In this document: one piece after another, positions 2,118-23,169 of the stretch
Layout: each line of letters starts with the position of its first letter
Position numbering within the stretch: the first letter of the stretch is position 1
Source of the DNA: a virus
Strand: one strand, 5' to 3'
DNA length: 24,190 bases
IMG/VR virus record: IMGVR_UViG_3300042691_000130
Coordinates: 1 to 24,190 of that record
Notes under the pieces: model-generated
The model's input: the letters and a program-made list of their open reading frames with translations, nothing else
What the model was told of the DNA's origin: nothing
Databases searched by the model: none
Translations under genes and position numbers: made by a program

Positions 2118-3614
2118 ATGGCACGCAAGTTCCTCGTCAGTATTGACCTGACAAAGAATGAATTACAGAACGCGGTAATTCAGAATCTAGCCACAGCGCC
2201 TTCAACACCAAGCGCAGGTCAGATTTATTACAACACCAACGACAATGAATTGTATTTCTACAACGGCACTGCATGGGAAAGCACACAAGCAGAATCCGAA
2301 GTTCTGTATGGTGTTTTTGCTGCGCGTCCTGCTGCTGGTACTGCTGGTCGTCTTTACTACGCAACTGACCAAGCACTTCTTTATTTTGATGATGGTGCTA
2401 CATGGGCACAGGTATCTGCATTCGGTTCAGTAACAGCACAAACATCTTATGGCGCGTCAAGCGGTAATGGTTCAGCGAATACCTATTCTCGTAGCGACCA
2501 CACTCACGGCACACCATCATTAACGAACAATGCTGGTAGCAATCTCAGCGTTGGTGGAACTGCTGCGGTAGGAACTGGAACTGCTCCTGCTCGTGATGAC
2601 CATACTCACGGAATGCCGTCATTCGGTAGCGTTACTGCTCAAACATCTTTTGGCGCTTCAAGTGGCGATGGTGCTGCAACTACTATTGCTCGCGCAGACC
2701 ATACACACGGAACGCCAACACACGATAACTCCGCACACAGCGCAATTAATCTTTCAGCACTTGCTGTTCCATTGGCAGATATCAGCCTCAACAACAACAA
2801 GATAACAAACCTAGCAACACCAACAGTTGCGTCAGATGCAGCAACTAAAGGTTATGTAGATGGCGTTGCTGAGGGATTAAATATCCATGCTGCTTCATAT
2901 GCCGCAACAACAACAAATCTCAATGCTACTTATAGCAACGGAACTGCTGGCGTAGGCGCAACACTCACAAACGCAGGAACACAAGCAGCATTTAGCACCG
3001 ATGGCGTAAGTCCTGCTCTCAATGCTCGTATCTTGGTGAAGAATCAAACGAGCACTTTCCAAAACGGTATTTATGTTCTTTCAACTGTTGGCGATGGTTC
3101 AACTAACTGGGTTCTAACACGCGCAACTGATTTTGATACTGCTGTTGAAATGGCTGGCGGAGATTTTACTTTCGTTGATGCTGGCTCAACTCTAGCCAAT
3201 ACTGGCTGGGTAATGGTTGATGCAGTTACAACTGTTGGTACTAGCCCTGTTGTATTCCAGCAATTCTCTGGTGCTGGTACTTATACAGCAAGCAACGGCA
3301 TTCTTTTAACTGGCAATGACTTTAGTGGTGTAGTTGTAGCAAGCGGTGGATTAACAGTAGGAGCATCAGGCTTCGCTCTTGATACTGCTATTGCTGTTCG
3401 CAAGTATGCGGCAAATGTTGGCGACGGAACTGCGACTTCTTACACAATTACTCACAGTTTGAACACGAAAGATGTTATCGTTTCGGTCTATGATAATAGC
3501 AGTCCGTATGCTGAGGTAGTCTGCGATGTACAACATACATCTACTTCTGCCATTACTCTGCTATTCTCAGTTGCTCCAACTTCAAATCAATATCGTGTAG
3601 TCGTACACGCTTAG
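2118..3614 (+). CDS. Tail fibre protein with triple HxH repeat
   Basis: This 498-residue protein looks like a trimeric fibre. Residues 30-100 hold two copies of a G-x-I/L-Y-Y-x-T-x-x-x-x-L-Y-F type beta unit. Residues 101-200 hold repeats each closing with D-H-T-H-G (127-131, 161-165, 194-198). Residues 240-385 form a conserved phage-fibre block with G-Y-V-D-G at 245-249 and a Q-N-G-I-Y-V segment at 315-320. The C-terminal 70 residues contain T-I-T-H-S-L, resembling the end of the preceding gene. HxH motifs in T4-type fibres bind metal along the trimer axis, so a metal-stabilised shaft is a reasonable inference. A strong AAGGAG site precedes the ATG. The position between terminase and portal is unusual for a fibre gene. 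Confidence 0.8.
   Translation: MARKFLVSIDLTKNELQNAVIQNLATAPSTPSAGQIYYNTNDNELYFYNGTAWESTQAESEVLYGVFAARPAAGTAGRLYYATDQALLYFDDGATWAQVSAFGSVTAQTSYGASSGNGSANTYSRSDHTHGTPSLTNNAGSNLSVGGTAAVGTGTAPARDDHTHGMPSFGSVTAQTSFGASSGDGAATTIARADHTHGTPTHDNSAHSAINLSALAVPLADISLNNNKITNLATPTVASDAATKGYVDGVAEGLNIHAASYAATTTNLNATYSNGTAGVGATLTNAGTQAAFSTDGVSPALNARILVKNQTSTFQNGIYVLSTVGDGSTNWVLTRATDFDTAVEMAGGDFTFVDAGSTLANTGWVMVDAVTTVGTSPVVFQQFSGAGTYTASNGILLTGNDFSGVVVASGGLTVGASGFALDTAIAVRKYAANVGDGTATSYTITHSLNTKDVIVSVYDNSSPYAEVVCDVQHTSTSAITLLFSVAPTSNQYRVVVHA
2418..2717 (+). repeat. Intragenic repeats encoding D-H-T-H-G units of the fibre shaft
   Basis: Two clear long units (S-V-T-A-Q-T-S-Y/F-G-A-S-S-G, ending D-H-T-H-G) and one diverged middle unit occupy residues 101-200 of the fibre. 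The DNA copies differ at many third positions, so the repeat is old rather than freshly duplicated. Confidence 0.8.
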
Positions 3615-7728: not shown

Positions 7729-9393
7729 ATGTCAAAGACACAACTGAAAGCAGCGGACTTATACAATGAGTCCAATCCTAAAGTTGCTGCCGAGCGTCAT
7801 GAGGAATACACCGCAGAATTAAACAAGGCGCTATCAGCACCTCGTTCGTTCAATGGTGAAACTCTTGGCGGTTCTAGCGATGCTACTGCTCAACTTGAAG
7901 CACTTGTTTCAAACAAGTCTTTGAGCCCTGATGCTGTTGCTTCTCTAAACAACGCACTCGCAGCACAGCGTGGCGCAATGGGTGATATCAATAAAGAAAT
8001 CACTCTTACTCAGCCACTCAGCACTTCTTTTGCAGCATTCGACCTCGAAGCACCTGCGAAACTATTAACACCTCGCCCAACTCCACTCCGTAACAAACTC
8101 CCTCGCAAGAAGGGTGTTGGTACTTCACACCGCGTCAAGAGAATTCTTGGCTACACAGGTACAGGTACTGGCGGACAAGGAAACATTTGGCCGGGAATTA
8201 CCGAAACAACACAAAACAACTTTGCTCCGGGAGCATCTAACCCACTCTACTTAGAGCGCGGTCCTCAGATTAATTACACTGCTGATGACTTAGTGTTGCC
8301 TTACAGTTCATACTCACTATCTGACCAAGTTTCGTTTGACGCAAACTTCTCAGGTATGGGATATCAAGACCTACGCCAACTTTCCTCAACATCTACGCTA
8401 TATGCGACAATGTTGATGGAAGAGCGCATGCTTCTAATGGCACGCGGAACCGCATCAGGTTATTCAGGCGCACTTTCAACTCCTGCTGCTCCAACAGTAA
8501 CCGCTAAGGCTGCTACTGTTTCACTTCCTGCTGTTACTGGTGTAACTGGCAAGGTATGGGCAAAGGTAGTTGCTTCTGCTGGCGCATTTGGTGGAACAGT
8601 TCCATCAGCAGTCGGCTCAGATACTCCTGCTGCTGGCGAGTACATCGAAGTAGCAATCGCTGGCGTTGTCGGCGCAGTTTCTTATGATGTTTATGTTGGA
8701 ACAGGTGCTTCTGCTCCTGCTGATTCAGCAATGTTCTATGCAGGTTCAACAGCAACTTTAACATTCAATGTTACTGGCGCTCTACCAACCACAGGAACAA
8801 CTGCTGCAACTATTGCTGCTGCTGGTAACACCTCTGCATACGCAACAGGTTATGACGGAATTCTTCCAACAGTTCTTGGTCCTAATTCAGGATACAACAA
8901 CAACATTAACGCAGCATTCAGCACCGGAAATCCGGGAGTTGAATACCAAGAGGTCTTCTACAACATTTACAACAATGTTAAGGGCGACCCAGATGAAATC
9001 CTTATCAATGGCGCAGACCGCCGTCAGTTGTCTGATGCTATTAAGAACGGCTCAACCGCTAACTATCGTCTAAACCTCACACAAACTGAGGCTGGAGATT
9101 ATATTGGTGGCGCAACCATCGGTGCTCTTTACAATGAAATCACTGGTAAGATGGTTCCTCTGACTGTTCACCCATGGCTACCACAAGGCGTAAGCCCTGT
9201 ATTGTCATACACACTTCCAATTCCAGATACAGAAGTTTCCGATGTATGGTCGGTCATCAATGTTCAGGACTACATGGGTATTCAATGGCCTGTAGTTCAG
9301 TTCTCTTATGACTTCTCAACCTACTTCCGTGGAACATTCTTCTGCTACGCTCCAGCATGGAACGGCGCAGTTTCCGGAATTAAGAACGCGTAA
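7729..9393 (+). CDS. Major capsid protein (HK97 fold) with Ig-like insertion
   Basis: This is the shell protein of the icosahedral head. The 554 residues exceed the usual 300-400. Residues 1-90 look helical and charged and may be an arm or a cleaved delta region. The E-loop/N-arm region includes R-P-T-P-L-R-N-K-L-P-R-K at 116-127. Residues 250-370 are a Thr/Ala/Val-rich insertion with V-S-Y-D-V-Y-V-G-T-G at 317-326 and L-T-F-N-V at 344-348, typical of an Ig or fibronectin-like beta-sandwich. The HK97 core resumes with D-P-D-E-I-L-I-N-G at 420-428 and ends in an aromatic F-R-G-T-F-F-C-Y segment. The insert probably forms a surface projection. The gene is followed by a strong hairpin, consistent with separate control of an abundant product. 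Confidence 0.9.
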   Translation: MSKTQLKAADLYNESNPKVAAERHEEYTAELNKALSAPRSFNGETLGGSSDATAQLEALVSNKSLSPDAVASLNNALAAQRGAMGDINKEITLTQPLSTSFAAFDLEAPAKLLTPRPTPLRNKLPRKKGVGTSHRVKRILGYTGTGTGGQGNIWPGITETTQNNFAPGASNPLYLERGPQINYTADDLVLPYSSYSLSDQVSFDANFSGMGYQDLRQLSSTSTLYATMLMEERMLLMARGTASGYSGALSTPAAPTVTAKAATVSLPAVTGVTGKVWAKVVASAGAFGGTVPSAVGSDTPAAGEYIEVAIAGVVGAVSYDVYVGTGASAPADSAMFYAGSTATLTFNVTGALPTTGTTAATIAAAGNTSAYATGYDGILPTVLGPNSGYNNNINAAFSTGNPGVEYQEVFYNIYNNVKGDPDEILINGADRRQLSDAIKNGSTANYRLNLTQTEAGDYIGGATIGALYNEITGKMVPLTVHPWLPQGVSPVLSYTLPIPDTEVSDVWSVINVQDYMGIQWPVVQFSYDFSTYFRGTFFCYAPAWNGAVSGIKNA

Positions 9394-9410
9394 CAACTGA
9401 ATAATTGAGT

Positions 9411-9440
9411 GAGGGTGCGTCATATATCGGGCGCACCCTC
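9411..9440 (+). terminator. Hairpin after the major capsid gene
   Basis: Perfect 9-bp stem GAGGGTGCG (9411-9419) with CGCACCCTC (9432-9440) and a 12-base loop, in the 65-base gap after the capsid stop. The stem is GC-rich but no clear T-run follows, so it may be a weak terminator, an RNA-stabilising end or a processing site. The stem is certain; the function is inference. Confidence 0.55.
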
Positions 9441-9458
9441 TACTTATAGGGGGCAATA

Positions 9459-9740
9459 ATGGCAAGAATGATTCCACCGCAAGGACTCAAAGAAGTATCG
9501 GTAAAAACAGAACGCGGAACAAAAGTTTATAGGGCAGGGCGCGACGGATTGATAAATGTTGATAATCCGCGTCATGCCAAACAAATGAAGGCAGAAGGTT
9601 TAGGCGAAGCAAGCACAAGCGGAATTATCGTTGGTCAAGGTTTTCCTTGTAGTCAATGTGGTTTTGGTTCATGGTTCAAAAAATGTTCTCGTTGTGGGCA
9701 TGACAACGAACGCATAGAGAGAGATGGTTCAATTGGCTAA
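9459..9740 (+). CDS. Small zinc-ribbon protein of the head/neck module
   Basis: This 93-residue protein lies between the capsid and adaptor genes. The N-terminal half contains D-N-P-R-H-A-K-Q-M-K near residues 35-44, a phrase typical of small proteins in head-tail connector regions. The C-terminal third is a zinc ribbon with C64-x-x-C67 and C76-x-x-C79. It could be a capsid accessory, a head-completion factor or a regulator; the sequence does not decide. An AGGGGG ribosome site precedes the ATG. The end overlaps the next gene by 17 bases. Confidence 0.7.
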   Translation: MARMIPPQGLKEVSVKTERGTKVYRAGRDGLINVDNPRHAKQMKAEGLGEASTSGIIVGQGFPCSQCGFGSWFKKCSRCGHDNERIERDGSIG

Positions 9741-13049: not shown

Positions 13050-13437
13050 AAAAGGCGTTGATAAAGTCGCTGCTAATATAGACATTAGTACACGCATGGC
13101 GCGCGACGAGATGATGGCAGCACTTATACAGTTATCAAAAGAACAAATTGAAGGCAGACGACCAGAAGGCGAACGCGCATGGAAGGGTTATCCCACTCCG
13201 CCTATGAATCGCACAGGCGATTTGCGCCGTAGTATTCGTGGCGAAAAGTTCAAGCAAGGTTTTGCCAGTTATTCAGCCATAGTTGGTCCTACTATTATCT
13301 ACGGACGGAGAGTAGAATTAGGTGGTGGTAATTGGCCAGCAGGAGTTCGTTTCCCATACATGGAACCTGCTTATGAAAAGTTCCGCACACAAATAGTTCC
13401 GCAAGTTCAGGCAAAGTATTTTAGGAGGTTCAGGTAA
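13018..13437 (+). CDS. HK97 gp10-like neck / tail completion protein
   Basis: This 139-residue protein starts at GTG, the first of two tandem GTG codons, inside the end of the T frame. The motif M-N-R-T-G-D-L-R-R-S-I-R-G at about 62-74, then A-I-V-G-P-T-I-I-Y-G-R-R-V-E-L-G-G and F-P-Y-M-E-P-A-Y-E-K, is the arrangement of HK97 gp10-like and minor tail Z-like proteins, which help join head and tail. The usual place of this family is before the tail terminator; here it lies after the chaperones. The end holds AGGAGG for the tape measure start and overlaps it by one base. An alternative start at the downstream ATG (13096) would remove the N-terminal helix, so I prefer GTG. Confidence 0.75.
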   Translation: MVLTSNLKLVRKGVDKVAANIDISTRMARDEMMAALIQLSKEQIEGRRPEGERAWKGYPTPPMNRTGDLRRSIRGEKFKQGFASYSAIVGPTIIYGRRVELGGGNWPAGVRFPYMEPAYEKFRTQIVPQVQAKYFRRFR

Positions 13438-16400
13438 TGCTCGGTGGATTCCTGCCTCCTGTTGTATTTGAAGTTACTGCTAACGCAACGCAAGCCTTAG
13501 CAAGTTTCAAAGGCATTAATACGCAGTTGAAAGCCATGGAAGCGCAAGCGCTGAAAACAGGCAAAGCGCTGACTACCATGAATAAGGCTGCTATGGTAGG
13601 AACAAAAGTTCTCAAAGGTTTTGCTGTTGCGTTTGGTTTATTTGCTGCTATTGGCGTAAAAGAAATAATGGCGTTAGAAAAATCATTTGTTCGCCTTGGT
13701 AAAGCATTAGCCAATGTCGGTGTATCTACCGAAGCCAATAGAAAATCTATTGGAGCATTAGTAGATTCTTATGAGCAATTAGGTTTTGGCTCAGATAAAA
13801 CAGCAGACGCTTATGCTGTATTGATTACAGCCACAGGTAATGTTGAGAAATCAAATCGTTTATTAGCAATATCGGCTGACCTTGCTCGAGATAAAACAAT
13901 TAGCATTGATGAAGCGTCGCGCATATTAGCCAAAGCAACACAAGGTTCTGCAAGAATATTCAAAGAATACGGCATAACTTTAGATACAAACAAGAACAAA
14001 GCCGTTGCTGCCGAAGAAGCAATTGATAAATTAGCGCAGCGCATAGGCGGTCAGGCTACTGCTTATTCTAAAACTTTCGCAGGACAACTTGCTATTCTCA
14101 ATGAAAATGTAGGTAATCTTGCCGAACAAATAGGTATGCGTTTATTGCCGTTCCTCAATAAACTTGTATCAGGACTTAACAATACTGGTACTTGGATAAG
14201 AAAGAATAGCGATTTCGTTATCGCGTTAAGTGCCGCTATAACCATAGCACTTATACCTGCTGTTGTTAATCTTACAAAGAAGTTAGCCTTACTTGCTGCG
14301 ACAATTCTTAAAAGTCCAATCGCGCGACTAGCGATTCTTATATTCGCTGCGACTTATGCGTTTGTTAAATTGTATAATCAAACGGATAAAAATCGTAAAA
14401 ACTTTGCCAAGTTTGCTCAAGTAGTTGTAGATTTATCTAAGTTCATGGTAGATGCTTTAGAAAATGTTTGGTGGGTCGTTGCCGAAGCATTACCTACGGC
14501 GTTTGCTAATTTCTTGAAATGGGTAGGTAAGTATGTTCCTTGGGCTAAATCATGGGGCGAAGATTTAGAAAAATCTATCAAATCCTCATTACCAGCAAAA
14601 GCATTTCAAAAGGCAAAAGATGAACTGCTTGAAATGTCTGTTGCGATGGAAAAAATTAAACAGAGTGGTGGCAAACCTCTTAAACTGGAATGGGATTTTA
14701 AGGCGCCAAGCATTCCCGGATTCGATAACAATGGCAGTTTCAGCGATACTATTGTTGGCGAAACAGACAAAGCACTAGACCGCGCTACGCAACGCTTCAA
14801 AGATTTTGCTCGTGATGTCGCTGATGTATTCAAACAAATAACAGCCTCATATAAAAGTATTGTTACAAAAGACTTTGATAAACTCATTTCAGAGCGCATT
14901 GGCGACCCAGTAGACCAATTAATCTATGACGCACAAGCAGCCATTACGCGTTATGAATCAGCCTCAGGCGCATGGACAGCAGCAAATAACGCACTTACTA
15001 AATCGCAAAACGAATATGTAACGGCATTGAAAACAGGCGAAGATAGTTTGATTGCCGCTGCTGAGAGCGCTCTAGGTTATGCCGAAAATGCTGTTGGCGG
15101 ATTAGCAGATGATATGGCTGCGGCACTTGAAGACATAGAGCGCCTACAAGAAGACATGATTAATGCCGTCGTTGAAATGTATGAGAAAATCAGCGAACTT
15201 GAAACCGAGCGCACAAAGATACTCAAAGAGGCACAAAAAGAACGCACAGAATTAGAGAAAGACTATAACAAAGAAGTTGCTCGTCTGCGTAAAGATTACG
15301 ACTCTAGCGTTCTTATTGCCGAAGCCGAAGCAGCAAAACGCCGAGCCGAGATTGTTAAAACTTCAGTTGACCAACTGCGTTCTGCTTTTCGCACAGCAAC
15401 TTATCGCACACTTGGCGATGTTTATTCAAGTCTTACATTTGAGGGTCGCTACCTCAAAGGTGGCTCGATGGAGAAAATACTCAAAACTCTTGGGCTACAA
15501 ACAGAAAAAGCGCAGAGCCTAGCCGATAACGCAGCAAAACTTGCTGGTCTAGGATTCTCTCAAACCTTCATAGAAGAAGTAATTGCTCTTGGTCCTGATA
15601 TGGGCAACAGCCTTTCCAAGACAATTCTCAACTCTACTCCTGAGTCTATTAAACAATTACAGGAGTACTGGAAGAAGTTAGAAACAACAAGCCTACATGG
15701 CGTTGATGGTATAGCGCAGAAACTCAATAGTGGCATGACTTTGGCTACTGAGGAACTTACAGCGCAGTTGCTTCAAGTAGATATTGATTTGAAGAATCAA
15801 CTTGCTGAGGCGCAAGTAGCATTAACCAATTCTCTAACAGAAGCATTTGAAAATTACAGCAGCGCTTTAGATGAAATCAATAATCGCACAGCAGAGCAAA
15901 TCGCGGCTATTGATAATCAAATAGCATTACTTAATGCCAAGATAGCCATGATGCGCGAAGCGTTATCAAAACTATCAGGCTTAGCCACTCCCGGAACAGG
16001 TGGCGGAACTAATATCATTCCGCGCGCTGAAACTACAGAACAAGAAGGTCCTGCTTCTAGTTGCGAATCAGGCAAAGGCGTCTATAAAGTAATTACATAC
16101 AACGGACAAGAAATGAGCCGTACTTTAATTCGTTGTATTCCAAAAACCTCAACTGATTCAACTGATTCTACTGATTCAACTGATTCAACTGATTCTACCG
16201 ATTCAAGCGGAGAGCCATTCATTCCGCCTACAACAGTTACTACACCTTCTACAACTGAATCAGGATTCCCTGAATTATTCACAGTAGGCGGTAAGACATT
16301 TGTTTATGGCTCAGGAACTATTAAGTCAGCGCGAGAAGATGATACGCCTAATGAAACAAGAGCGCGTCAGCGTATTGCAGACATATTTGCTGGTATAACT

Positions 16401-16547
16401 GGCGAAGGTCTGAAACAAGGCATAACAGTAAATGTAACAGCCAACACAAATGCCTCTGCTGCTGATATTGCTATGGAAACAGCATGGGCTATACGCACTT
16501 CTGCTGATGTACAATATCGCACCCCAACAGGAAGGGTTCTTGAGTAA
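13437..16547 (+). CDS. Tape measure protein
   Basis: At 1036 residues this is the longest gene. It sets tail length and is ejected with the DNA. Residues 1-50 are helical and repetitive. Hydrophobic stretches at about 61-74 and 258-312 are candidate membrane segments, as expected for a protein that enters the host envelope. A long coiled coil covers about 561-651, rich in E, K and R (E-L-E-T-E-R-T-K-I-L-K-E-A-Q-K-E-R). A second coiled coil is at about 815-846. The C-terminal 190 residues are different in character: a Gly/Thr/Pro-rich linker with two Cys, six T-D-S repeats (906-923), then a short folded end. I see no peptidase or lysozyme motif. A strong AGGAGG site and a TAATG overlap mark the start. 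Confidence 0.96.
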   Translation: MLGGFLPPVVFEVTANATQALASFKGINTQLKAMEAQALKTGKALTTMNKAAMVGTKVLKGFAVAFGLFAAIGVKEIMALEKSFVRLGKALANVGVSTEANRKSIGALVDSYEQLGFGSDKTADAYAVLITATGNVEKSNRLLAISADLARDKTISIDEASRILAKATQGSARIFKEYGITLDTNKNKAVAAEEAIDKLAQRIGGQATAYSKTFAGQLAILNENVGNLAEQIGMRLLPFLNKLVSGLNNTGTWIRKNSDFVIALSAAITIALIPAVVNLTKKLALLAATILKSPIARLAILIFAATYAFVKLYNQTDKNRKNFAKFAQVVVDLSKFMVDALENVWWVVAEALPTAFANFLKWVGKYVPWAKSWGEDLEKSIKSSLPAKAFQKAKDELLEMSVAMEKIKQSGGKPLKLEWDFKAPSIPGFDNNGSFSDTIVGETDKALDRATQRFKDFARDVADVFKQITASYKSIVTKDFDKLISERIGDPVDQLIYDAQAAITRYESASGAWTAANNALTKSQNEYVTALKTGEDSLIAAAESALGYAENAVGGLADDMAAALEDIERLQEDMINAVVEMYEKISELETERTKILKEAQKERTELEKDYNKEVARLRKDYDSSVLIAEAEAAKRRAEIVKTSVDQLRSAFRTATYRTLGDVYSSLTFEGRYLKGGSMEKILKTLGLQTEKAQSLADNAAKLAGLGFSQTFIEEVIALGPDMGNSLSKTILNSTPESIKQLQEYWKKLETTSLHGVDGIAQKLNSGMTLATEELTAQLLQVDIDLKNQLAEAQVALTNSLTEAFENYSSALDEINNRTAEQIAAIDNQIALLNAKIAMMREALSKLSGLATPGTGGGTNIIPRAETTEQEGPASSCESGKGVYKVITYNGQEMSRTLIRCIPKTSTDSTDSTDSTDSTDSTDSSGEPFIPPTTVTTPSTTESGFPELFTVGGKTFVYGSGTIKSAREDDTPNETRARQRIADIFAGITGEGLKQGITVNVTANTNASAADIAMETAWAIRTSADVQYRTPTGRVLE
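16152..16205 (+). repeat. Six tandem 9-base units encoding Thr-Asp-Ser
   Basis: Six consecutive copies of ACTGATTCA or close variants (ACTGATTCT, ACCGATTCA) encode (T-D-S)6 at residues 906-923 of the tape measure protein. The units are in frame, so unit loss or gain would keep the gene open. The near identity suggests recent slippage expansion. Confidence 0.95.
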
Positions 16548-17454: not shown

Positions 17455-18588
17455 ATGGCACTTAGAACACCGCCTTCGTGGCTACAGAACGGCACTCACC
17501 CTGCGGACAATGACCGCTTGACTACTACGGGTGCTATTTGGAGGTCGCAAGGTGCTGCCGATTTTGGCGCGTTGAAAGTATCGCAATCTGCCACTCCTGC
17601 TATGTCTGTATCTATTGCTGGTGGTCATGCTCTTATTAACGGAACTGAAACCGCAAACCAAGGTTTATATGTTGCTTTCAATGATGCTGCTACAACAGTT
17701 GCTATTGCTACCGCCGACCCATCTCAGCCTCGTATTGACCGCGTTGTAGTTAAAGTTCAAGACTCATTTTATTCAGGTGCAACCAATTCCGTATCTTTCG
17801 CAGTAGTTACTGGAACACCTGCTGGTAGCCCAGTTGCTCCTGCCGCACCAGCCAACTCTCTTACTCTTGCTCTAATTGCCGTTGCTGCTGGCGCAACTTC
17901 TATCGTCAATGCAAACATTACTGACTCGCGCGTAACGGCTCAATTTAGCGAGCATGAATTTACCGCAGGGGCAACTGCTGCTAATACTTTGGTTGTAAAT
18001 GGTATTGCTGGTCAAACAGGTAAAGCCTTCAAAGTCAATGATAGTACAGGAACGCAGAAGTTTGCTGTTGCCGTAGATGGAACTCTTACTTTCCAAGATG
18101 GAACAACTCAGACTACGGCTGCTGCTGGCGGTGTTACAACTGTTAATGGTGGCACAGGTATCACAGTTACAGGCACTACCTCAGTTAGCGTTGCTATTGA
18201 TACAACAGTTACAGCCGATTTAACAACTGCTCAAACGCTTGCGAATAAGACCCTTACCTCGCCTCTTATTAACCTCGGCATCAATGCTCAAACAGGAACT
18301 ACTTACACGACAGTTTTGGCAGATAACGGCAAACTTGTAACGCTCACAAACGCTGCCGCTATTGCCGTAACTATTCCTCTCAACTCATCTGTCAATTATC
18401 CTGTTGGTGCTCAAATCAATATGGTTCAAATGGGCGCAGGACAAGTAACAGTTTCAGGCGCAGGTGGCGTAACTATCGTTTCAACAGGCGCTACGGCTGC
18501 TTCGCCTAAAACACGCGCGCAATACAGCACATTGACATGCGTTCAAACAAGCACAGATAATTGGCTAGTGATGGGTGATATTTCATGA
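17455..18588 (+). CDS. Minor tail protein / fibre with N-terminal attachment domain
   Basis: The 377 residues start M-A-L-R-T-P-P-S-W-L-Q-N-G, an N-terminus seen in minor tail proteins of actinobacterial phages. Residues 1-165 form a beta domain with D-R-V-V-V-K-V near 95-101. A linker follows with T-F-Q-D-G-T-T-Q-T-T near 216-225. The last 135 residues, from A-I-D-T-T-V-T-A-D-L-T-T-A-Q-T, are a repeat-type shaft and tip domain shared with the protein at 18842-19477. It probably attaches to the tail tip by its N-terminus and presents the tip domain outward. Its ribosome site is AGGAGAAG. The stop overlaps the next gene in ATGA. Confidence 0.72.
   Translation: MALRTPPSWLQNGTHPADNDRLTTTGAIWRSQGAADFGALKVSQSATPAMSVSIAGGHALINGTETANQGLYVAFNDAATTVAIATADPSQPRIDRVVVKVQDSFYSGATNSVSFAVVTGTPAGSPVAPAAPANSLTLALIAVAAGATSIVNANITDSRVTAQFSEHEFTAGATAANTLVVNGIAGQTGKAFKVNDSTGTQKFAVAVDGTLTFQDGTTQTTAAAGGVTTVNGGTGITVTGTTSVSVAIDTTVTADLTTAQTLANKTLTSPLINLGINAQTGTTYTTVLADNGKLVTLTNAAAIAVTIPLNSSVNYPVGAQINMVQMGAGQVTVSGAGGVTIVSTGATAASPKTRAQYSTLTCVQTSTDNWLVMGDIS
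18184..18588 (+). repeat. Fibre tip module, copy 1 (paired with 19067-19477)
   Basis: The encoded residues share A-D-L-T-T-A-Q-T-L, N-A-Q-T-G-T-T-Y-T, G-A-G-Q-V-T and R-A-Q-Y-S with the end of the gene at 18842, in the same order and spacing. Many silent differences show that the duplication or exchange is not recent. Confidence 0.85.
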
Positions 18589-18842
18589 GTCGCTTAGCCT
18601 TAACACCCACTAATGTTCCTGCTAGTGCTTCGGCTATATCAACGCCGACCCTACGAACAGGCGACCTTTATTACAACACTTCTACCGGACTTATGGTTTA
18701 TGACGGCTCCGCATGGACACAGGTTAGTTCAAATGTAACTACCTCTGTGATAGATGGCGGAGTATTTGATAGTATTGCGCCATATCAAGGTGGGTTTCCA
18801 ACCGATGCGGCAACGCAAACTTTTGATGGAGGTACTCCGTAA
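18585..18842 (+). CDS. Small fibre-associated protein
   Basis: This 85-residue protein is embedded in an ATGA/TAATG coupled run. Residues 25-49 hold the unit G-D-L-Y-Y-N-T-S-T-G-L-M-V-Y-D-G-S-A-W, which matches the two beta units at the N-terminus of the fibre at 2118-3614. The C-terminal 30 residues are Gly/Asp-rich (G-G-V-F-D-S-I-A-P-Y-Q-G-G). It could be a link between fibre segments or a small cap; no enzymatic motif is present. The shared unit supports a fibre role; the exact function is unknown. Confidence 0.65.
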   Translation: MSRLALTPTNVPASASAISTPTLRTGDLYYNTSTGLMVYDGSAWTQVSSNVTTSVIDGGVFDSIAPYQGGFPTDAATQTFDGGTP

Positions 18843-19477
18843 TGCCAGTAGTCACACAAGTACAAGTTAGACGCGGAACTGCCTCTCAATGGACTTCTGC
18901 TAATCCAACACTCGCTTCGGGCGAATGGGGATTTGAATCCGATACAGGTAAAGTAAAAATCGGTAATGGTTCAAGCGCATGGAACTCTTTAGGTTATACA
19001 GGCGCAGGAGATATTGAAGGCGTAACAGCCTCAACAGGATTAAGTGGGGGCGGAACAAGCGGTACAGTTTCATTATCTATTGATACTGCCGTAACTGCGG
19101 ACTTAACAACAGCGCAAACTCTTACAAATAAAACTTTAACTGACCCTAAGATTAATCTTGCTCTCAACGCACAAACGGGAACGACTTATACTTTTGCGCT
19201 AACTGATAACGGCAGATTAGTTACTGCCTCTAATGCTTCGGCGCAAACTTATTCAATTCCTACAAACGCTTCCGTTCAGTTTCCAGTAGGAACACAAATA
19301 AACATTATTCAAATTGGTGCTGGTCAAGTAACTATTAACGCGGTAACTAGCGGAACAACAACTATTGCTTCAACTGGTGCTAGTGCTACTGCTCCTAAAC
19401 TACGCGCACAATATTCATCAGCAACTTGTATCAAAGCGGCAACTGATTTGTGGTATGTAATAGGAGATATTGCCTAA
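18842..19477 (+). CDS. Tail fibre protein with Mtd-like N-terminal domain
   Basis: The 211 residues begin with V-Q-V-R-R-G-T-A-S-Q-W at 7-17, then A-S-G-E-W-G-F-E-S-D-T-G-K-V-K-I-G-N-G. This is the N-terminal motif of many fibres and of the major tropism determinant N-terminal domain, used for attachment to the tail. From about residue 76 the protein is homologous to the end of the gene at 17455. The two genes thus share a tip domain on two different attachment domains, which is how modular fibres are built. Overlaps of one base on both sides imply coupled translation. Confidence 0.78.
   Translation: MPVVTQVQVRRGTASQWTSANPTLASGEWGFESDTGKVKIGNGSSAWNSLGYTGAGDIEGVTASTGLSGGGTSGTVSLSIDTAVTADLTTAQTLTNKTLTDPKINLALNAQTGTTYTFALTDNGRLVTASNASAQTYSIPTNASVQFPVGTQINIIQIGAGQVTINAVTSGTTTIASTGASATAPKLRAQYSSATCIKAATDLWYVIGDIA
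19067..19477 (+). repeat. Fibre tip module, copy 2 (paired with 18184-18588)
   Basis: This is the second copy of the tip module. It aligns with the copy ending at 18588 over its whole length, including the identical type of ending (G-D-I-A here, G-D-I-S there). Confidence 0.85.
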
Positions 19478-20067
19478 TGCCTATTCTTGGAGTTGTTGCT
19501 TCTTCTATTAGCGGAAATCTTTATTCTGCTTCTTATGACTCTATTTCTACTGTGACAGTAGGGGCTGGCGGTGCATCTTCTATTGACATCACTAATATTC
19601 CGCAAACCTACACGCATTTGCAACTTAGATTTTTTGCTAGAACGAATCGTTCAACATACAATGTTGATGAAGTTTATATTTATGCTAATGCTGACACTAC
19701 TTTGACAAATTATGCTGGTCATTATTTATGGCCTAATAATAATAATTTTCCTGGAACGGTTGTTTCTGGCGGCGGAGCAAATTTTCCAACTCCTTATATT
19801 GTCGGAGCGAATAATGGAAACGCTCCATTTGGCGGTTGGGTAGTTGATATTCTTGATTATACAAACACTAATAAATTCAAAACAATAAAAGGTCTGGGTG
19901 GCGCAGATTCTAATGGAGATGTTGCAACATTTTGCTGCATGCCTGAATTGTGTTCATCTTTATGGAAAAACACTAACGCTATTACTTCATTAAGAATTAA
20001 CATGGGTTTTGGAACTTCGTTTAATCAATATTCATCTTTTGCTCTTTACGGAATCAAGGTGGCATAA
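19477..20067 (+). CDS. Fibre/adhesin-type protein, array subtype A, copy 1
   Basis: This 196-residue protein is the first of six copies of one domain. I place the start at 19477 (TAATG overlap, AGGAGA about ten bases before) and not at the in-frame ATG at 19450 inside the previous gene. After a 16-residue hydrophobic lead the domain begins S-Y-D-S-I-S-T-V-T-V. The subtype A signatures are Y-T-H-L-Q-L-R, a D-Y-T-N-T-N-K-F-K-T segment, and the end F-A-L-Y-G-I-K. Asn, Ser, Thr and Gly dominate, with the beta pattern of an exposed fibre head. The family name is unknown to me; a role in host or surface binding is inferred from position among fibre genes. Confidence 0.7.
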   Translation: MPILGVVASSISGNLYSASYDSISTVTVGAGGASSIDITNIPQTYTHLQLRFFARTNRSTYNVDEVYIYANADTTLTNYAGHYLWPNNNNFPGTVVSGGGANFPTPYIVGANNGNAPFGGWVVDILDYTNTNKFKTIKGLGGADSNGDVATFCCMPELCSSLWKNTNAITSLRINMGFGTSFNQYSSFALYGIKVA

Positions 20068-20561
20068 TGCCTAGCACATATACGCCGATTGCAACGACAA
20101 CGCTTTCAACTGCTACTGCAAGCATTACATTTAGCAGCATACCAGCAACTTACACGGATTTAATTCTTGTTTTTAATGGTGGACTTGACCCCTCCGCTAA
20201 TGAATTATCGTTGCGATTTAATGGTTTATCATCAAACATTTATTCATATACAAGATTACAAGGTAATGGCTCTAGCGCTACAAGTAATAGGTTTACTAAT
20301 ACAAATTATATGCACATAGGCAGTCCAGGAAATAGTTTGGTAATTGGTAATTCTATAAATCATATTATGAATTATGCAAATACAACTACATATAAAACTT
20401 TATTGTCTAGGAGTAATTTTACAAATCGTGAGTTGATGGCAACCGCAGGATTGTTTTCCAGCACTTCTGCAATTACTTCTTTGACTCTTGCGAACAGTGA
20501 CAGTAATCAATTTTTATCATCGGGTTCAAGTTTGACCCTCTACGGAATAAAGGCGGCATAA
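20067..20561 (+). CDS. Fibre/adhesin-type protein, array subtype B, copy 1
   Basis: This 164-residue protein consists of one array domain only. It opens Y-T-P-I-A-T-T-T-L-S and contains Y-T-D-L-I-L-V, N-I-Y-S-Y-T, Y-A-N-T-T-T-Y-K-T-L-L-S-R and the end L-T-L-Y-G-I-K-A-A. The closest relative in the window is the protein at 21893-22393, which shares I-A-T-T-T-L-S, Y-S-Y-T and K-T-x-L-S-R-x-N. The start overlaps the previous stop by one base, and its ribosome site AAGGTGG is formed by the last codons of the previous protein. The function is probably part of a fibre head; there is no catalytic motif. Confidence 0.7.
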   Translation: MPSTYTPIATTTLSTATASITFSSIPATYTDLILVFNGGLDPSANELSLRFNGLSSNIYSYTRLQGNGSSATSNRFTNTNYMHIGSPGNSLVIGNSINHIMNYANTTTYKTLLSRSNFTNRELMATAGLFSSTSAITSLTLANSDSNQFLSSGSSLTLYGIKAA

Positions 20562-20562
20562 C

Positions 20563-21864
20563 ATGGCAAATACATATAAAGCCTTATCTACTGTAACTGT
20601 GGGCGCAGGTGGCGCGGCAACTATTTCATTTACAAATATTCCTCAAACTTATACAGATTTGAAAATAGTTCTTAGTACCAGAAGTACTGATAATAGTATT
20701 GCTGACAATATGTTGATTGCAATAAATGGTTCTAGTTCTAATTTTACTGGTCGTTTTTTATTCACAAATACTAATGGAACTATTTCTAGCGGGAACGACA
20801 CAACCGCTTCAGGTGCTTACAATGGCGCAACTGCAACAGCAAATACATTTTCAAATGTTGAGATTTATTTTCCTAATTATGTTGGCAGCAATAATAAATC
20901 GTTTAGTGTTGATTCAGTTGCGGAAAACAATGCGACACAATCTAATATGTATATTGATGCTAAATTGTGGAGCAATACTGCCGCGATAACTTCAATAGCG
21001 TTTACACCTACAACAGGTAATTTTGTTCAATATTCAACCGCTACCCTCTACGGCGTATTCAATGCTGATGTATCTAGCGCACCTGCTACGCCGACAATAG
21101 GAACGGCTACGGCTGGCGTTCAGTCTGCTTCTATTACTTTTACAGGCGTATCCAATGCTGCTTCTTACACAATGACTTCTACTCCCGAAAGCATTACAGG
21201 AACAGGCACAACTAGCCCAATCACAGTATCGGGATTAACTGGCGGAACTGCTTATACTTTCAAAGTTAAATCAAATAATCCTCTTGGTTCGTCTGCTGAA
21301 AGCGCGGCAAGTAATAGCGTTACACCAACAGTTCCTTTGAGTTATGAATCTATTGCTACTATAAGTGCTGGCGGTCAAACACAAGTTGCTTTCACAAGTA
21401 TTCCTTCAACTTATTCACATCTACAATTACGAATGATGGTACGCAGTACTATCAACACAGGTGGTTACAATCAGGCTACTGTCGTTTTGCGTATTAATGG
21501 CGCTGCCATTCGTGGAGGTATATACGCATTTCATGAATTAACGGGTAATGGTTCAACTGCTGCTTCAGGCGGTACCGTTAGCAGCCAAGAAGCCTATGGT
21601 GTAGCAGTTCCAACTGCTAATATAGCAAGTAATGTATTCGGCGTTTCAACAATAGATTTCTTAGATTATGCTAATACTAATAAATACAAAACTTGGCGAG
21701 GTATAACTGGGTGGGACGACAATTCTTCATTGGGGTTCGCAAAAACATTTAGCGGTATTATGTTAGAAACAAACGCTATTTCGTCTATGTATTTTTCAAC
21801 CGACTATAATTTTGCGTGGGCAAGCGGAACTGTTTTTGCTCTTTACGGGATTAAATCAGCATGA
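20563..21864 (+). CDS. Two-headed fibre/adhesin protein: subtype C, FN3-like linker, subtype A
   Basis: The 433 residues contain three parts. Residues 1-167 are a complete subtype C domain (V-T-V-G-A-G-G, Y-T-D-L-K, Y-F-P-N-Y-V, V-Q-Y-S-T-A-T-L-Y-G). Residues 174-256 are a fibronectin type III-like domain with S-A-S-I-T-F-T-G-V, I-T-V-S-G-L-T-G-G-T-A-Y-T-F-K-V, and an ending N-S-V-T-P-T. Residues 259-433 are a subtype A domain (S-Y-E-S-I-A-T-I, S-H-L-Q-L-R, D-Y-A-N-T-N-K-Y-K-T, F-A-L-Y-G-I-K). In the array it stands exactly where separate C and A genes would be. It could bind two ligands or join two fibre rings. It ends with ATGA-like spacing before a 28-base gap. Confidence 0.75.
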   Translation: MANTYKALSTVTVGAGGAATISFTNIPQTYTDLKIVLSTRSTDNSIADNMLIAINGSSSNFTGRFLFTNTNGTISSGNDTTASGAYNGATATANTFSNVEIYFPNYVGSNNKSFSVDSVAENNATQSNMYIDAKLWSNTAAITSIAFTPTTGNFVQYSTATLYGVFNADVSSAPATPTIGTATAGVQSASITFTGVSNAASYTMTSTPESITGTGTTSPITVSGLTGGTAYTFKVKSNNPLGSSAESAASNSVTPTVPLSYESIATISAGGQTQVAFTSIPSTYSHLQLRMMVRSTINTGGYNQATVVLRINGAAIRGGIYAFHELTGNGSTAASGGTVSSQEAYGVAVPTANIASNVFGVSTIDFLDYANTNKYKTWRGITGWDDNSSLGFAKTFSGIMLETNAISSMYFSTDYNFAWASGTVFALYGIKSA

Positions 21865-21892
21865 TAAATTATTTTAGAAAGATAGGTGCGTA

Positions 21893-22393
21893 ATGCCAGC
21901 AGGAGCGACTTATGATTCTATTGCAACTACAACACTTAGCAGCACGCAATCAACTATTGATTTTACAAGTATTAGTGGAAGTTATACTGATTTAGTATTA
22001 GTCGTAACAAGTATTTCAAGTACTGGTGGCGATGTGTGGGTAAGAGTAAATGACGATACTGCTAGCAATTATAGTTATACTGTTTTGTATGCGAATACCA
22101 GTTCTACTGGCTCTGCCAACGATAACAATGTAGCAAATGGATTAATTACCGATTATTATGGTTCGGTAGAAAATGCTAATAATCAACTTGCTGTAATTCA
22201 ATTTTATAGTTATGCAAATACATCTACTTTCAAAACTATATTAAGTAGAGCAAACAGAGCCAATAATGGCGTTGATTTGATATGCTCTATGTGGCGTAGT
22301 ACATCTGCTATAACTAAATTGACTTTAAGATTTACTGGTGCCAGTTTTGGTATAGGAACAACAGCAACTCTCTATGGAATAACGGCGGCATAA
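21893..22393 (+). CDS. Fibre/adhesin-type protein, array subtype B, copy 2
   Basis: The 166 residues form one array domain of subtype B, opening Y-D-S-I-A-T-T-T-L-S, with Y-T-D-L-V-L-V, N-Y-S-Y-T, Y-A-N-T-S-T-F-K-T-I-L-S-R-A-N and the end A-T-L-Y-G-I-T-A-A. It differs from copy 1 over most exposed-looking middle residues while keeping the framework, as expected if the copies evolved different binding surfaces. It starts after a 28-base gap with a GATAGG-type ribosome site, the only gap of that size in the array, which may mark the old boundary of the second cassette. Confidence 0.7.
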   Translation: MPAGATYDSIATTTLSSTQSTIDFTSISGSYTDLVLVVTSISSTGGDVWVRVNDDTASNYSYTVLYANTSSTGSANDNNVANGLITDYYGSVENANNQLAVIQFYSYANTSTFKTILSRANRANNGVDLICSMWRSTSAITKLTLRFTGASFGIGTTATLYGITAA

Positions 22394-22395
22394 TC

Positions 22396-22923
22396 ATGGC
22401 ACTTACATTTTCAGCAATAGCAACTGTAACAGTAGGTAGCGGTGGTACTGCTAATATAGAATTTACCAACATACCTGCGTCTTATACTGATTTGAAATTA
22501 ATGTTATCGGGTAGGACTAGCAATAACGACTCATTACATTATGGACCTATTTATATTACATTTAATAACGATACGAGCGCAATTTATGATAATTTAAGAC
22601 TCATGGCTTATGGAACTACTGTACTTGCTGGTTCAGACATAAATCAAAACAATGCGGCAAGCGCTACAAATGGCTCAAGTGCCACAACTAGCGCTTTTAG
22701 TGCTAATGAATATTACATTCCAAATTATGCTTCCAATGTAAATAAACCTTGGTTAGCAGATTACGCGGTAGAAACAAATGACGCAAACAATAATTTAATG
22801 TCATTAGCGGCAAATTGGGCAGAAACTACAAGCGCTATTAGTTCAATAAAAATAGCCGCAACTGGGGGTCAAACAATTGTGCAATATTCAACTGCTACAC
22901 TTTACGGCATCAAGAAAAACTAA
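22396..22923 (+). CDS. Fibre/adhesin-type protein, array subtype C, copy 2
   Basis: The 175 residues form one subtype C domain: I-A-T-V-T-V-G-S-G-G, Y-T-D-L-K-L-M-L-S-G-R, Y-Y-I-P-N-Y-A-S-N-V-N-K, an A-I-S-S-I segment and V-Q-Y-S-T-A-T-L-Y-G-I. The relative is residues 1-167 of the protein at 20563. It is a standalone gene here, unlike copy 1, which is fused to FN3 and subtype A. It closes the array; the following gene is a coiled-coil protein behind a strong AAAGGAG site. Confidence 0.7.
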   Translation: MALTFSAIATVTVGSGGTANIEFTNIPASYTDLKLMLSGRTSNNDSLHYGPIYITFNNDTSAIYDNLRLMAYGTTVLAGSDINQNNAASATNGSSATTSAFSANEYYIPNYASNVNKPWLADYAVETNDANNNLMSLAANWAETTSAISSIKIAATGGQTIVQYSTATLYGIKKN

Positions 22924-22935
22924 AGGAGAAAAACA

Positions 22936-23169
22936 ATGGCAGAAACACCTACACGCATAGAGGTTAATTGCGCAACAGGCGAGCAGAAGGTAATCGAACT
23001 AACTGCCGCTGAGATTGCTGAACTTGACCAAATGCGCGCAAAAGCAGAGGAAGAAGCAGTAGCACGGAAAGCAGAAGAAGACGCCAAGGCAGCAGCCAAG
23101 GCATCGGCTCTTGCTAAACTTGCTGAACTCGGACTCACAGAAGAAGAAGCAAAGGCTATTGCTGGTTGA
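22936..23169 (+). CDS. Small coiled-coil protein downstream of the fibre genes
   Basis: Residues 1-20 of 77 form a short beta segment (R-I-E-V-N-C-A-T-G-E-Q-K-V-I-E-L). Residues 24-65 are a continuous Ala/Glu/Lys helix, and the end L-G-L-T-E-E-E-A-K-A-I is a small helical motif. Proteins of this design are common after fibre genes in phages and stay uncharacterised. A fibre-assembly helper or a short trimerising linker is possible but unproven. The ribosome site AAAGGAGAAA is strong. The 74-base gap after the stop contains a hairpin. Confidence 0.7.
   Translation: MAETPTRIEVNCATGEQKVIELTAAEIAELDQMRAKAEEEAVARKAEEDAKAAAKASALAKLAELGLTEEEAKAIAG

Follow-up and report, generated by a model that had tools for sequence, protein, structure and literature searches.

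Among described systems, the tail of the virophage DSLV2 offers the nearest parallel to the locus studied here: three consecutive paralogous genes, which relatives retain as a trio, encode proteins that copurify as a 1:1:1 heterotrimer and bind cells, and these proteins contain PF07484, the tail collar domain, and are similar to T4 gp37 (PMC12724248). Homotrimeric fiber tips such as T4 gp37 come from one gene and consist of identical subunits with a stalk of their own, and the T-even adhesins of the gp38 type form the Gly_rich_2 (PF21722) class. In animals, the globular head of the immune protein complement C1q, which is borne on a collagen stalk, is built from the paralogous chains A, B, and C as one pseudo-threefold ligand-binding head. 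Here, we describe a cassette of three paralogous genes, likewise called A, B, and C, that is present twice in IMG/VR record IMGVR_UViG_3300042691_000130, a freshwater-type virus whose analyzed sequence of 24,190 bases (G+C content, 43.6%) is referred to as the window. Given that the same trio recurs in the same order in hundreds of viruses with fast-changing sequences, the A-B-C trio is probably a three-part tip for recognizing bacterial hosts.

As read from its open reading frames (ORFs), the upstream portion of the window contains terminase-, portal-, and tape-measure-like ORFs, followed by tail-fiber genes. At 19477-22923, one domain of ∼165 amino acids (the tip domain) is present six times in the order A-B-C-A-B-C. 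A preliminary description of this DNA had read the region as a three-gene cassette present twice; the order and the copies stand, but the number of genes is five, since C1 and A2 are a single protein with a fibronectin-III (fn3)-like linker between them, encoded by one 433-amino-acid ORF (20563-21864). Neighboring cassette genes abut or overlap by 1 nucleotide (nt), the sole exception being a 28-nt gap before B2. The features of the region are as follows.

19477..19524, + strand: N-terminal anchor peptide of A1, MPILGVVASSISGNLY, an extension of at least 10 amino acids before the domain; its motif type, MPILGIIASS, is found in many relatives
19525..20067, + strand: A1 tip domain, subtype A (gene 19477-20067), assigned by the A hidden Markov model (HMM), tree clade A, and alignment
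20067..20561, + strand: B1 tip domain, subtype B, assigned by HMM and tree; its ATG overlaps the A1 stop codon by 1 nt
20563..21060, + strand: C1 tip domain, subtype C, the N-terminal part of the 433-amino-acid protein, assigned by HMM and tree
21061..21333, + strand: fn3-like linker joining C1 to A2, with a weak match to Pfam fn3 (E value, 0.0023; 18.5 bits against a curated cut-off of 25)
21334..21864, + strand: A2 tip domain, subtype A, without anchor peptide and fused to C1, assigned by HMM and tree
21893..22393, + strand: B2 tip domain, subtype B, assigned by HMM and tree
22396..22923, + strand: C2 tip domain, subtype C, assigned by HMM and tree; predicted structure all-beta, with a predicted local distance difference test (pLDDT) score of 90.2

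The short signatures by which the three subtypes had been distinguished were all recovered, namely, THLQLR/SHLQLR and NTNKFKT/NTNKYKT in A1/A2, IATTTLS and KTLLSR/KTILSR in B1/B2, and YTDLK and VQYSTATLYG in C1/C2. The distinctness of the subtypes was borne out by a tree of 42 domains that included other viruses, in which A, B, and C each formed one clade (support of 100/97, 100/93, and 99/96, respectively), and by subtype HMMs, which told 695 domain copies apart, the median margin being ∼98 bits. Mean identity within a subtype is ∼49%, yet the subtype-specific residues are near-invariant (in C2 numbering, H32, Q34, R36, D107, and D110 in A; T68 and R86 in B; R40, Y107, and P109 in C). Chance similarity of the six copies is ruled out by the tree, the HMM margins, and the order test described below.

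Relatives were collected from IMG/VR by scans with subtype alignments, which returned >500 relatives per subtype; two scans from divergent seeds provided a second sample. Alignments were needed as queries, as a scan with the C1-A2 protein as a single query gave no relatives. The surveyed loci (designated by L numbers) were fetched by A, B, and C queries, the best 80 per scan were kept, and near-duplicates and loci with an identical domain in common were collapsed. Counting full, confidently classified copies in both samples, we obtained 238 ABC, 18 ABCABC, and 6 ABCABCABC loci, so that exact multiples of ABC make up 262 of the 271 loci that have ≥3 full copies; short contigs truncate arrays, and most shorter patterns are due to contig ends. 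Adjacent pairs followed the cyclic A-B-C order in 663 of 670 cases (AB, 313; BC, 314; CA, 36; deviations, 7), whereas 2,000 shuffles within loci gave 317 such pairs on average and never more than 391, and the intergenic gap lay within −8 to +10 nt for 95% of AB and 88% of BC pairs. Exceptions to the order are L026 and L123, where an extra B domain terminates a long fiber-like ORF, and L299/L300 and L315, which read B-A-C. Relatives with one, two, or three cassettes, predicted in the preliminary description, thus exist among virus loci, and their copies are far from randomly ordered. That the trio stays together in fixed order across viruses also supports its proposal that A, B, and C have different jobs.

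The cassette is not rare, with relatives in hundreds of environmental virus contigs. Its only close named relatives are the cultured “Candidatus Planktophila” phages LanE43AprE7 (E7) and AprF5 (F5), which have a single A-B-C cassette each, with neighbor genes unlike those of the window; no mention of the cassette was found in the main text of the paper on these phages (PMC10202952). Some cassettes lie on contigs binned to bacteria, namely, L231 in a metagenome-assembled genome (MAG) of Polynucleobacter and L232/L233 in an actinobacterium MAG, which are possible hosts unless the contigs are misbinned phage sequences; the A gene of L231 is divided over two frames. Locus L391 (3612-6689) has two cassettes whose A and B genes are broken by frame changes, reflecting either decay or sequencing errors.

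To describe how the cassette varies, we used 95 pairs of loci with ≥500 bp of flank in common (DNA identity, ≥85%). No protein was common to the two cassettes at ≥85% amino acid identity in 72 of these pairs, one protein was common in 3, and all three were common in 20, whose flanks were 96 to 100% identical except for E7/F5 (93%); IMG/VR is probably dereplicated, so pairs with a whole cassette in common are depleted. Where cassettes have a subunit that is >65% identical, 41 of 42 pairs have just one such subunit in common. For example, L030 and L015 share B at 100% identity (A, 47%; C, 56%), and L193 and L018 share B at 99% (A and C, 55% each), with upstream DNA 91 to 96% identical. This single-slot sharing, read from the sequences, indicates that alleles pass between phages, always into the same slot. 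Independent exchange of slots would also suit an arrangement in which A, B, and C each form a homotrimer (or stay monomeric), giving each virion three independent receptor-binding heads that differ in target. We consider this unlikely, as separate heads do not require the strict 1:1:1 gene ratio and fixed order seen in the 262 loci. The variation extends over the whole tip domain and is found among phages, which does not look like the work of a diversity-generating retroelement (DGR) of the Mtd type, with its variable repeat and reverse transcriptase, although no search for a reverse transcriptase was made; the gene upstream of the window cassettes has Mtd_N only.

The subtypes also differ at their N termini. 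An extension of at least 10 amino acids (median, 18) precedes the domain in 308 of 311 A proteins, 9 of 325 B proteins, and 0 of 316 C proteins; B and C are stand-alone domains of ∼160 to 180 amino acids, and A is longer by only ∼14 to 36. At the B-A-C loci L300 and L315, it is the first gene, B, that has the extension, and A begins at the domain. The A extension of E7, MAVISIKNKIKSGTLLAGN, resembles the N termini of two adjoining Gly-rich proteins, MSISSLKTGTVSPSSLLVGN and MAIRSLKTGAFSRSLLVGN, with the common motif M-A/S-I-x-S-L-K-T-G...SLLVGN, and the one of these neighbors that was tested matches PF21722. The common peptide suggests that A and the Gly-rich proteins of E7 may use a common docking site. 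In three-cassette loci, the A proteins have differing anchor types in constant order (complete in L211 and L223; the same order was seen for the second and third cassettes in L235, L243, L265, and L277), suggesting that the cassettes of such loci may dock at separate sites. An anchor type for each cassette would also fit three separate heads, although B and C, having no anchor peptide, would be unable to dock alone as A does.

With the anchor on A and the gene order fixed, one could also picture stacked layers of a single fiber, with A docked, B on A, and C distal. In some phages, B and C have Gly-rich C-terminal additions of ∼285 amino acids, which are never found on A, as if B and C lay further out; one of them, an extension of B in L063, matches PF21722. 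However, the additions occur on B and C alike in L054, L063, L191, and L197, and a distal C would not touch A, at odds with the covariation reported below; we regard stacking as distinctly improbable.

The model predicted for C2 is a confident all-beta domain (predicted template-modeling score, 0.87). Foldseek matched it to predicted viral proteins with a template-modeling (TM) score of 0.88; these are mostly uncharacterized and include proteins named for Stf repeats, collagen repeats, glycine-rich regions, and fn3. Searches of Pfam, PHROGs, and PDB sequences for a family to which the tip domain belongs gave none, just stray weak matches. A weak single copy of the domain also forms the C-terminal end of the long protein gp29 of Streptomyces phage Intolerant, which is encoded a short distance behind genes for tape-measure and minor tail proteins. 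Cassette neighbors are mainly of tail-fiber type (Mtd_N, Gly_rich_2, and minor tail PHROGs). From the viral fold matches, gp29, and these neighbors, we infer that the domain sits at the fiber tip; the adhesin or tail-fiber context assumed earlier is thus supported by both neighbor genes and fold relatives. Other cassette neighbors match “head and packaging” PHROG labels, as might be expected of virion decoration or structural proteins that do not bind hosts and vary under some other selection. This we hold to be highly improbable, because the neighbors and fold relatives are mainly tail-fiber, Mtd_N, and Gly_rich_2 proteins and because hypervariable alleles amid conserved flanks are typical of receptor-binding genes. 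A protein of ∼120 amino acids matching phrog_7759 adjoins cassettes in L005 (9762-10133), L034 (2455-2814), and L208 (5245-5592), downstream in one phage and upstream in the others.

Taken together, the obligate 1:1:1 trio, the abutting genes, the single anchored member, the subtype-fixed residues, and the tip-like fold favor one heterotrimeric head. Our best explanation, held with moderate confidence, is an A:B:C heterotrimeric receptor-binding tip that is docked by A and whose slots exchange alleles. The cassette would encode a receptor-binding tip of three paralogous beta-domains, and A, B, and C, made from abutting genes, would join 1:1:1 as a pseudo-threefold heterotrimer. As A alone has an anchor, one peptide would dock one heterotrimer on the fiber or tail. 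A conserved strand framework and the subtype signature residues would hold each subunit in place, variable loops would touch the host surface, and the allele exchange seen in the sequences, by single slot or whole set, may serve to renew host recognition combinatorially. In the window virus, where A2 is fused through the fn3-like linker to C1 and has no anchor of its own, two heads would stand in series; the same kind of C-linker-A fusion occurs in L299/L300. Separately, L186 has, from position 1570, a C-type domain followed by an fn3-like linker and an unrelated region of nearly 300 amino acids. A more tentative proposal is that host specificity depends on which A, B, and C alleles are combined in a single heterotrimeric head. 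Each slot would read a different surface feature, phages would draw replacements for single slots from a vast common pool of alleles, and two or three heads would be chained or added in some viruses.

Covariation between subunits agrees with the heterotrimer. The mean of the top 20 scores was 1.10 for AB, 1.08 for BC, and 1.23 for AC, compared with permutation maxima of 1.01, 0.93, and 0.93, and thus lay above all 20 permutations in each case (three kinds of permutation were used). The signal is strongest between A and C, although their genes are not adjacent, which speaks against separate heads and against stacked layers alike, the subclade effect noted next applying here too. Several points count against a heterotrimeric tip or temper the case for it. 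A subclade of ∼25 cassettes contributes to the covariation, as contingency tables show (e.g., A S157/B D97), so that covariation is support and not proof. AlphaFold2 gave a pLDDT of 67.7 and a predicted TM score of 0.37 for an A-B-C chain with 7 sequences, in which in-frame cassettes of relatives were read through stop codons, a result that speaks neither for nor against assembly; single-domain rows were left out of this alignment, since MAFFT aligned the majority of those from A and C to domain B. Free exchange of slots implies that the interfaces must be generic. No solved structure in the PDB resembles the C2 model in the Foldseek search (best TMq, 0.35). In favor of the tip, E7 and F5, which were isolated on the same host strain, have zero mismatches over L005 7963-9683, which covers B, C, and all of A except its first codons (cassette, 7923-9519); this is consistent with a role in host specificity but is weak evidence, because some other parts of the two phages likewise match completely or almost completely. 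The “three layers” and “heads for different receptors” offered in the preliminary description are possible arrangements, but a single heterotrimeric head has the better support. A further point for separate heads is that long phage proteins can end in a lone copy of the related domain.

Compared with the systems introduced above, the cassette resembles the DSLV2 tail in being a consecutive paralogous trio kept across relatives. It differs in that a Pfam scan of the five window proteins and 60 C-type members found no PF07484, in that no gp37-like match was present among the PDB matches listed for the C2 model, and in that the cassette occurs in tailed phages, in one to three copies, with an anchor on A only and slot-wise exchange of alleles. 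Because the tests for the defining domain and fold were negative, we do not count the A-B-C proteins as DSLV2-type members; by analogy, they probably work like the DSLV2 tail. As in homotrimeric fiber tips (T4 gp37; compare Intolerant gp29), a C-terminal beta domain ends a tail protein and likely contacts the receptor, but here three diverged genes share one anchor peptide and there is no stalk. Gly_rich_2 adhesins are linked to A by the N-terminal peptide of the E7 neighbors; unlike them, the tip domain matches no Pfam family (PF21722 was not found in A1 to C2 of the window) and is not rich in glycine, and Gly-rich modules are just C-terminal additions on B or C in some relatives. The likeness to the C1q head is an analogy only, with no fold match found for the C2 model.

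The preliminary description had derived the second cassette from tandem duplication of the whole first one, a claim that our data do not support. Within each subtype, the two window cassettes are 37 to 40% identical. When all copies are ranked by identity to A1, B1, or C1, the second window copy comes 175th of 187, 187th of 192, and 174th of 185, respectively. Most copies from unrelated viruses are thus closer to A1, B1, and C1 than the second window copy is, and much the same is true of most other arrays. In the 42-domain tree, the pairs A1/A2, B1/B2, and C1/C2, which should have been sisters under duplication, are not. Under the refuting condition set in the preliminary description, the duplication claim therefore fails, and the three subtypes and their order stand. 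The identity ranks rule out a recent tandem duplication; the approximately unbiased (AU) test does not reject pairing (P values of 0.21, 0.08, and 0.27 for A, B, and C), so an ancient duplication is possible. Judging from these comparisons, the second cassette either came from elsewhere or may be an ancient duplication since overwritten by exchange.

Three further genes adjoin the window cassettes.

17455..18588, + strand: virion structural or minor tail protein, upstream (phrog_3398, E value of 4e-28, and minor tail families)
18842..19477, + strand: tail-fiber protein with Mtd_N, upstream, a likely fiber neighbor (Pfam Mtd_N, E value of 2e-15; tail-fiber PHROGs)
22936..23169, + strand: Ala/Glu-rich protein of 77 amino acids, directly downstream, with no significant PHROG

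The two upstream fiber proteins have the same C-terminal domain and form a paralogous pair just before the cassette, with a 115-nt repeat at 71% identity. An ORF of 73 to 85 amino acids directly follows many cassettes (L009, L175, L201, L208, L229, and L265); speculatively, the small protein behind cassettes might be an assembly factor. Elsewhere in the window, the tape-measure-like ORF (13437-16547) has a (TDS)n run, STDSTDSTDSTDSTDSTDSSGE, close to its C terminus, and a 498-amino-acid protein (2118-3614) soon after the terminase-like gene matches head-decoration phrog_2647 (E value of 3e-47) and also tail-fiber families. Searches of the window for RNAs and tRNAs found nothing.

The three-gene module exists and is widespread, no earlier description of it came up in our searches, and it is probably a kind of phage receptor-binding tip. 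Receptor-binding proteins are largely unknown for phages of abundant, hard-to-culture aquatic bacteria, and the module is present in hundreds of environmental phage contigs. It is also carried by E7 and F5, the first two phages of “Ca. Planktophila” brought into culture, which together with their host LanE-43 make our reading of the cassette testable now. If this reading is true, the host-range locus of such phages would be recognizable from sequence. Among tailed phages, the module would then exemplify a hetero-paralogous tip that is obligate, and its shuffling of alleles, in which every allele keeps to its slot, would amount to an experiment made by nature.

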